64,000 bases of DNA, from positions 1-64,000 of the forward strand of contig JAIMKP010000004.1 of NCBI GenBank assembly GCA_020692355.1, in the 5' to 3' direction. A model generated the notes under the pieces. It worked only from the letters and a program-made list of their open reading frames with translations. It was not told the DNA's origin and did not search any database. Shown one piece after another: positions 2,500 to 5,989 of the stretch; the stretch's first letter is position 1; the number at the start of each line of letters is the position of its first letter. Origin of the DNA: Desulfosporosinus sp. Its GTDB lineage: Bacteria > Bacillota > Desulfitobacteriia > Desulfitobacteriales > Desulfitobacteriaceae. The position numbers and the translations under genes were made by a program.

Positions 2500-2664
2500 A
2501 TGGTTCAACTCTCTTCCCGAGGATCTCCCTCATTTTAGCAAACCACGAGGTAAGGGTCAAATTTCCCCTGCTTCCATCCGTGAATTGTTGGTAGCTTGGT
2601 CTGAACTGGGAAAGCAACCCATATGATTTTAGGAAGCAAGACAAGGCCCAAAGGGGGAATCAGT

Positions 2665-3534
2665 ATGTCTTCTCTGCGTTTGGACATCGAACAAGCCATG
2701 GGGCTTAAGTTTCCTGAGCGTAACGAGGAAGCGCTCGTGCGCTTTGAAGAATCGTTGGAAATACCTCGAGGAGCTGAAGAACTGATGCGCGGGTTTTACC
2801 GGCATCCGGAGCGGGTTAAACAAGGATTCCAAAACCTTCATCTGGAGACGGCGTCCATCTTGGATCTGCTTTTGCCGCGCCGTTCCCGCCTACGCGAATG
2901 GGCGGAAGCGTTGCCGGAACGCCCGCAGGACGCCGAAACCTTCCTCAAAGAAACAGGACAAGAGCTTGGCAAACGGCAAGAACGCCTGGTGCATATCGAA
3001 CGTGAACTTTTAGAAGAATTAGAGGAGAGCCGTGCAGCCGAGATTTTCCCGTTGCCCTTATCTATTTTTGGTACTTTGAACATCAAGGAGCCCGCAGTGA
3101 AGATCTATCTTCGGCCTTTAGGCCGAATCGCAGAGCTAGCGGAACTTAATCCGGAGTCAGTGCGCCAGGCCGTGCGGGTGCATTTTCTCGTGCTCCTGCT
3201 TCTGGTAGCCGGCCAGGATCTGGACGGGCAATCTTATGCTCGTGGTGGGGATGAGTCCGCTCTCCACACCGTTGCCACTGTGTATGCTTGGCGCTATTTG
3301 AAACGCCAGTCGACAGAACTCATACAGTGCTATCAAGAATGGTTAAAGGCTTGGGGTGGACAGAAGCCTACCCAAGGCCTGGTTGGTGATGGAGTGGCGG
3401 AAAAATTAAGAGCCGCCATGATCTTTTGGCGGCGTCGGGGAACGCTGAGTTGGGAGGAAGGTCTGCAACTTGTCGGCCGTTTGCAAGCGAAGGAAGAGGG
3501 ACGGGATACGGAAGTGTATACCGTGCGCCTGTGA
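2665..3534 (+). CDS. Hypothetical helical protein
   Basis: I do not recognise this 289-residue protein. It is rich in Glu, Arg and Leu and mostly helical, with a likely amphipathic or coiled segment around residues 90-125 and one short hydrophobic stretch (VHFLVLLLLVAG) near residue 180. It has no signal peptide and no clear catalytic motif. The ATG at 2665 is preferred over one at 2623 because AAGGGGGAA sits just before it. It is divergent from the helicase and convergent with the Crp-family gene, so it is probably its own transcription unit. Confidence 0.7.
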   Translation: MSSLRLDIEQAMGLKFPERNEEALVRFEESLEIPRGAEELMRGFYRHPERVKQGFQNLHLETASILDLLLPRRSRLREWAEALPERPQDAETFLKETGQELGKRQERLVHIERELLEELEESRAAEIFPLPLSIFGTLNIKEPAVKIYLRPLGRIAELAELNPESVRQAVRVHFLVLLLLVAGQDLDGQSYARGGDESALHTVATVYAWRYLKRQSTELIQCYQEWLKAWGGQKPTQGLVGDGVAEKLRAAMIFWRRRGTLSWEEGLQLVGRLQAKEEGRDTEVYTVRL

Positions 3535-4267: not shown

Positions 4268-4615
4268 ATGGGTGAAAGTTATTTAGCGGGATCGGAGTAT
4301 CGGGATTCCAGCCGCAAGGAACTTATCTTGCGTGAGGCTTTGGCAAGCCTAAAAGGCCGCCGTTGGCATATTTGTCTAAAAAATGATGAAATTACGGTGC
4401 TGGTTGAGACGGAAATTGAAGTACTAGAGGTTAACCGTCGGGAAAACCGGATTGAAACAGGGCATTTAACCCTTGACGATGTCTATTTTGAACTGGTCAA
4501 CGACGTTGGGCTAAAACTCTTTTTCCCGCTTGTCCAGTTTCGGGAGGCCGAAATCTTCTCGTCGAGCTTAAATATCTGTTTTGATACCTTCTATTGGAGT
4601 TTCTATGCATTATAA
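4268..4615 (+). CDS. Hypothetical protein, divergent from the Crp-family gene
   Basis: This 115-residue protein is not one I recognise. It looks like a small soluble alpha/beta protein with alternating charged and hydrophobic residues (ITVLVETEIEVLEV, DVYFELVNDVGLKLFFPL), with no signal peptide and no membrane helix. AGGAGGAGATTGT lies directly before the ATG. The 20-bp divergent gap with the Crp-family regulator makes it a plausible regulatory target, which is inference only. A small membrane peptide follows after 33 nt on the same strand. Confidence 0.7.
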   Translation: MGESYLAGSEYRDSSRKELILREALASLKGRRWHICLKNDEITVLVETEIEVLEVNRRENRIETGHLTLDDVYFELVNDVGLKLFFPLVQFREAEIFSSSLNICFDTFYWSFYAL

Positions 4616-5214: not shown

Positions 5215-5290
5215 AAACACATAAATTTTGCCAACATAGGAAAACCTAAAGCAGATTTAAATTTGATTGAAGAAGGAGGTAGGAAGAAAT

Positions 5291-5953
5291 TTGGCGAAGC
5301 TCTTATCTGAAAAGGACACTGTGGCTATCAAGGATTTTTTTGGGCAGAACCTTGTTAACCCGATAACCATGCGTTTGTTCGTTCAAGATTCGTCTCAGCC
5401 GGGTGAATGCATGTATTGTTCTGAGACTCAGCAGATTGTCGAAGAAATCTCAGAGTTGAGTGACAAGATCAGCCTGGACATTCACAAGGTGCCCACCGAC
5501 GCTGGGTTGGTCAAGCAATATGATGTTGAGAGGGTTCCTGCGCTCATTTTAGAGAAGGAATCCGTTGACTCGGGTGTACGTTTTTATGGAATTCCCTCTG
5601 GCTATGAATTCGGCACGCTGATTGAGGACATCGCTGACTTGTCTACGGGAAAAACTAAGCTTACAGAAGAACTGCTCCAGCAAGTAGAGCAAGTGCAGAA
5701 AGACGTGACGATTAAAGTTTTCGTCACACCCACCTGACCGCATTGTCCCCGTGCCGTGCGCACGGCTCATCAATTGGCCATGGTCAATCCGCATATTAAG
5801 GCGGAATGCATTGAAGCCACTGAATTTGGAGAACTCTCACAACAGTACAATGTTTATGGGGTACCTAAATCCGTGATCAATGAGACTGTTCAATTCGAAG
5901 GAGCGGTTCCCGAAGCCGTCTTCGTTCGCAACTTGATGAAAGCGGTTGATTAG
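5291..5953 (+). CDS. Two-domain protein disulfide oxidoreductase, predicted selenoprotein (UGA 5735-5737)
   Basis: This gene encodes a double thioredoxin/glutaredoxin-fold protein of about 220 residues, the size of archaeal-type PDO enzymes. Domain 1 has CMYC at residues 40-43. In domain 2 an in-frame TGA (codon 149) sits exactly where the first catalytic cysteine belongs, giving FVTPT-Sec-PHCPRAV. The same frame then continues for 72 codons with good homology to the second domain (YNVYGVPKSV) to TAG at 5951. A GCCGT/ACGGC hairpin begins 16 nt after the TGA. The TTG at 5291 follows AAGGAGG. It probably reduces disulfides in the cytoplasm. Without recoding it would be a 148-residue truncated protein. 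Confidence 0.88.
5753..5766 (+). promoter_or_regulatory. Candidate bacterial SECIS hairpin
   Basis: GCCGT pairs with ACGGC around loop GCGC. The hairpin begins 16 nt after the in-frame TGA, inside the coding region, where bacterial SelB-binding hairpins lie. The placement fits; the loop has a G but I cannot fold it or score it here. Confidence 0.5.
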
Positions 5954-5959
5954 GTAGTA

Positions 5960-5989
5960 AAGCAGCACCTTCCTGGGAAGGTGCTGCTT
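5960..5989. terminator. Bidirectional terminator
   Basis: A perfect stem AGCAGCACCTTCC / GGAAGGTGCTGCT with a three-base loop sits between the convergent selenoprotein and GH18 genes. Both flanks are A/T-rich, so it could serve either strand. Confidence 0.8.

Follow-up and report, generated by a model that had tools for sequence, protein, structure and literature searches.

The window analysed here, a stretch of 64,000 nucleotides from Desulfosporosinus sp. (contig JAIMKP010000004.1, positions 1 to 64,000), carries a gene predicted with very high confidence from sequence comparison to encode a selenocysteine (Sec)-containing disulfide oxidoreductase of the PDO type, whose in-frame UGA would be read as Sec via SelB under the direction of a downstream hairpin. 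The gene and its principal elements are:

5291 to 5953, plus strand: PDO selenoprotein gene with a TTG start and a TAG stop, 220 aa, predicted Sec at residue 149
5275 to 5280, plus strand: Shine-Dalgarno-like AGGAGG, read from the sequence
5408 to 5419, plus strand: first active site, C40-M-Y-C43, in the first thioredoxin fold, placed by alignments
5735 to 5737, plus strand: TGA, the predicted Sec codon with which the second active site U149-P-H-C152 opens and where a TGA or Cys codon stands in 111/111 homologues of the tree set

The frame that opens with TTG at 5291 and closes with TAG at 5953 has the TGA at 5735-5737 as its sole interruption, with 148 codons on the 5' side and 71 sense codons on the 3' side before the TAG at 5951-5953. 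An earlier sequence-only reading of this DNA had counted 72 matching codons and a proper stop after the TGA; the stop is as described, and the figure of 72 includes it. The TTG start occupies the same position in L004, L007, L008 and L009, and AGGAGG-type sites also lie 5' of the aligned PDO starts in relatives.

The window protein matches the NCBIfam model TIGR02187 (PDO_seleno_TRX) with 265.1 bits against a curated cut-off of 185, covering profile positions 2-209 of 209, and Pfam Thioredoxin_3 matches it in two stretches. Alignment of the joined protein with PDO-family enzymes, which the earlier reading had proposed as a check, is near full-length and runs through the TGA, with a phmmer E of about 1e-51 for the PDOs of P. 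horikoshii and P. furiosus. The AlphaFold2 model (input: the window and locus sequences) has a mean pLDDT of 96.7, and its top PDB match is the P. furiosus PDO 1A8L (TM 0.93, rmsd 1.7). Sequence, model and PDB match all describe two fused thioredoxin folds with the motifs CMYC and UPHC, and where PDOs, the solved 1A8L and 1J08 among them, have the first Cys of their second CPxC site, the alignment places the TGA. The proposals that the TGA sits at the first catalytic Cys, and that the protein is a two-domain disulfide oxidoreductase with one CxxC and one UxxC site, are thereby borne out in both the PDO assignment and the second-site Sec. The archaeal and bacterial Cys-type PDOs (1A8L, 1J08, 2AYT, 2HLS) share the two fused thioredoxin folds and align over the full length (TM 0.89-0.93), but the second site of the Pyrococcus enzymes is CPYC where that of the window protein is Sec-PHC. 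The AhpF N-terminal domain (1ZYN, 5H29, 1HYU) is also composed of two tandem thioredoxin folds (TM 0.75-0.87), of which AhpF retains only the second site. Unlike the window protein, AhpF has a flavin module, the C-terminal flavin reductase; the window protein ends after the second fold and scores as an AhpF with only 86.9 bits against a cut-off of 502.9.

The whole Sec machinery, the absence of which had been named as a reason to reject the Sec reading, is present in the genome. selA scores 556 bits and selB 343 bits, the tRNA-Sec gene (selC) has the anticodon TCA, and there are two selD genes with the active sites UGCKIGP and UACKIGP, each U being a TGA:

G000:C40:27531-28460, own genome: selD gene (L026) with a Sec codon at its active site
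G000:C46:1483-2400, own genome: selD gene (L027) with a Sec codon at its active site

A selA match occurs in 19 of the 20 other genomes with a TGA-form PDO (17 over the cut-off and 2 fragments), and selA is over the cut-off in 7 of the 13 genomes with a Cys-form PDO. In G009, a TGA-form genome that is 90% complete, a selA match was not found and selB is present.

The consensus for bacterial SECIS (bSECIS) elements is a hairpin that follows closely on the UGA and has a G early in its apical loop. The window has a hairpin of this type, both in its position 3' of the UGA and in the G near the start of its apical loop:

5749 to 5765, plus strand: bSECIS-type hairpin, stem CCGTGC 5749-5754 and GCACGG 5760-5765, loop 5755-5759 (CGUGC), UGA-loop spacing 17 nt

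This putative SECIS element is supported by frozen synonymous codons, a compensatory pair and a contrast between Sec and Cys members of the family. From codon +4 to codon +11 past the TGA, 93% of same-residue pairs use the identical synonymous codon, compared with 38-56% elsewhere outside +1 to +3, where synonymous sites are near saturation. The fourth pair of the stem is compensatory across the Sec members, being U-A, G-C or C-G. The CCGTGC/GCACGG register is favoured by folding as well as by comparison, and its pairing reaches 77% in all 26 Sec members against 50% in the 85 Cys members; it rises to 93% in the 17 Sec members that use this register, but since these were picked after inspection 77% is the unselected figure. 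Pairing drops when the 3' arm is slid, and a hairpin scan gives a mean score of 16.6 in the 26 Sec members versus 8.3 in the 85 Cys members. Tested on its own against synonymous recoding the window's hairpin is marginal (p 0.076), and the free energy of its region is unexceptional (z 0.02). The sequence-only reading had pointed to a GCCGT/ACGGC hairpin, which does exist at 5753-5757/5762-5766 and begins at the 16th nucleotide after the TGA, but a second register overlaps it and is the better supported of the two. Its pairing hardly differs between the Sec members (76%) and the Cys members (72%), and it is therefore not supported as the SECIS stem of the family. This register, shifted by three nucleotides, is the one used by three Sec members that all belong to another genus (GGCTGC-AGTT-GCAGCC).

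Taken with the sequence comparisons, the UGA at 5735-5737 almost certainly encodes Sec in the second active site. Under standard gene calling the ORF ends at 5737, as it should if the TGA simply ended translation, whether as a normal stop or through a nonsense mutation, and left a truncated one-domain protein and a decaying remainder, but conservation makes this very improbable. In 61 genomes of the window's family and order, sampled for close copies, there are 8 full-length PDO copies including that of the window, with exactly one TGA each and in the same column (8/8). All 8 run on for 71 codons past it and end in TAA or TAG, so that close homologues stopping at the TGA, which had been put forward as counter-evidence, number 0/8 in the family and order. 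The same TGA is also kept in Sec members of distant families, and among the more distant homologues, drawn from across the phylum and from named genomes, the column holds either TGA or a Cys codon. When six close homologues are compared pair by pair, codons 12-71 past the TGA show a pS of 0.55-0.98 with a pN of only 0.02-0.14, which argues that the read-through part, closed by a proper stop, is under strong protein-level selection.

The remaining explanations are less probable still. There is an ORF that opens with GTG at 5756, from which the second domain could initiate independently to give two separate half-proteins, but this GTG sits in the hairpin loop and lacks a Shine-Dalgarno sequence 5' of it, the second fold would then lack its first strand and its catalytic site, and the Cys homologues are single chains; there is hardly any probability left for it. 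Since the frame would be open under any reassignment of TGA, near-cognate decoding or a reassigned code could also place another amino acid such as Trp at this position. This too is extremely unlikely, as all Cys homologues have their catalytic Cys at this position, the genome has a complete Sec system and the hairpin 3' of the UGA is frozen.

The homologue tree comprises 111 rows, 26 with Sec and 85 with Cys, and as drawn has nine Sec/Cys changes, at least three of which are forced by well-supported branches. The window's gene falls in an all-Sec clade of ten (SH-aLRT 98) and also in an all-Sec UPHC clade of six (SH-aLRT 100). Elsewhere in the tree, two genomes both labelled Tepidibacillus decaturensis (L074 and L076) differ in that one has a Sec PDO (UPYC) and the other two tandem Cys PDO genes (CPHC); either Sec and Cys were switched recently or one of the bins carries the wrong label.

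It is proposed that SelB and Sec-tRNA-Sec would decode the UGA at 5735-5737 as Sec, directed by the hairpin directly 3' of it as the comparative evidence suggests. The product would be two fused thioredoxin folds with an N-terminal Cys-Met-Tyr-Cys site and a C-terminal Sec-Pro-His-Cys site, in which Sec149 would act as the attacking nucleophile and Cys152 would resolve it by way of a selenenylsulfide. The PDO of Sulfolobus is reduced by NADPH and thioredoxin reductase and in turn reduces the Bcp peroxiredoxins; mutagenesis of this Cys-type PDO showed that thiol-transferase activity depends fundamentally on the C-terminal site, while isomerase activity requires both sites (PMC7465337). Sec would thus occupy the site that is expected to carry the transferase chemistry. 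We infer the redox partners of the window PDO from this archaeal biochemistry: recharging from NADPH by a thioredoxin reductase is probable, and the electrons probably pass onward to peroxiredoxins or protein disulfides. Two thioredoxin reductases score over the cut-off in the genome. One of them, on contig C85, has a fused N-terminal thioredoxin domain (CAPC; L159:1480-2760, minus strand) and is a candidate reductase for the PDO.

It is plausible that the CxxC and UxxC sites differ in reactivity, as the sequence-only reading had suggested; a literature search on the reactivity of the PfPDO sites yielded nothing useful. A relay built into the chain, with the N-terminal CxxC reducing the selenenylsulfide of the UxxC site and the Cys/Sec asymmetry providing two separate redox steps in one enzyme, is a rather unlikely elaboration. 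The N-terminal CxxC is lost and the C-terminal site alone kept in 4/26 Sec members (L062, L063, L065, L066) and 5/85 Cys members (L057, L064, L097, L098, L136), a loss that on these sequences is not clearly tied to Sec. Such a relay would therefore be dispensable in places, and this makes it testable by comparison.

A selenoprotein termed "homolog of AhpF, amino-terminal domain" was reported in a 2006 survey of bacterial selenoproteins from Carboxydothermus hydrogenoformans and Symbiobacterium thermophilum (PMC1794560). TIGR02187 with the motif UxxC appears in a 2022 review (PMC9312934) and again in one of 2026, which still lists it as "predicted with high confidence" (PMC13188914). The representative of this known family (ABB15282.1) shares both the TIGR02187 model and the UxxC motif with the window protein, and as the family has been recognised since 2006 the window gene is an ordinary further member of it. 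It differs in coming from a new species, in the His that replaces Tyr inside the motif (UPHC, common to the window's family and order), and in having a frozen CCGTGC/GCACGG hairpin of its own. What it adds is a clean, well-conserved Sec-PDO clade in one Bacillota order with comparative support for the SECIS hairpin, and it shows the point at which a standard gene caller would break a PDO gene in two or cut it short. The members of the clade, together with matched Cys homologues, would lend themselves to testing directly what an enzyme with two sites gains from Sec.

The PDO gene appears to stand alone, flanked by a divergent ComFB gene upstream and a convergent GH18 gene downstream, from which it is separated by a hairpin:

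5960 to 5989, no strand assigned: hairpin in the gap between the converging genes PDO and GH18, an exact 12-bp palindrome beyond chance expectation

The palindrome is probably a two-way terminator, although a terminator consensus scan did not list it. In the window's family a gene set of helicase, an unnamed gene, Crp, ComFB, PDO and GH18 is kept together. A redox partner was sought in this neighbourhood, but the family-conserved genes (Crp, ComFB, GH18) name none and the more distant Sec-PDO genes have other neighbours, so that no partner could be named. Two genes conserved near the PDO gene in the window's family, at 2659-3531 and 4268-4615 of the window (both plus strand), have no match in Pfam or NCBIfam. 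In another genome (G107), the stretch 3738-8244 of L155 has a Sec-PDO gene next to what by eye are apparent rubrerythrin, FAD oxidoreductase and carbon monoxide dehydrogenase genes.
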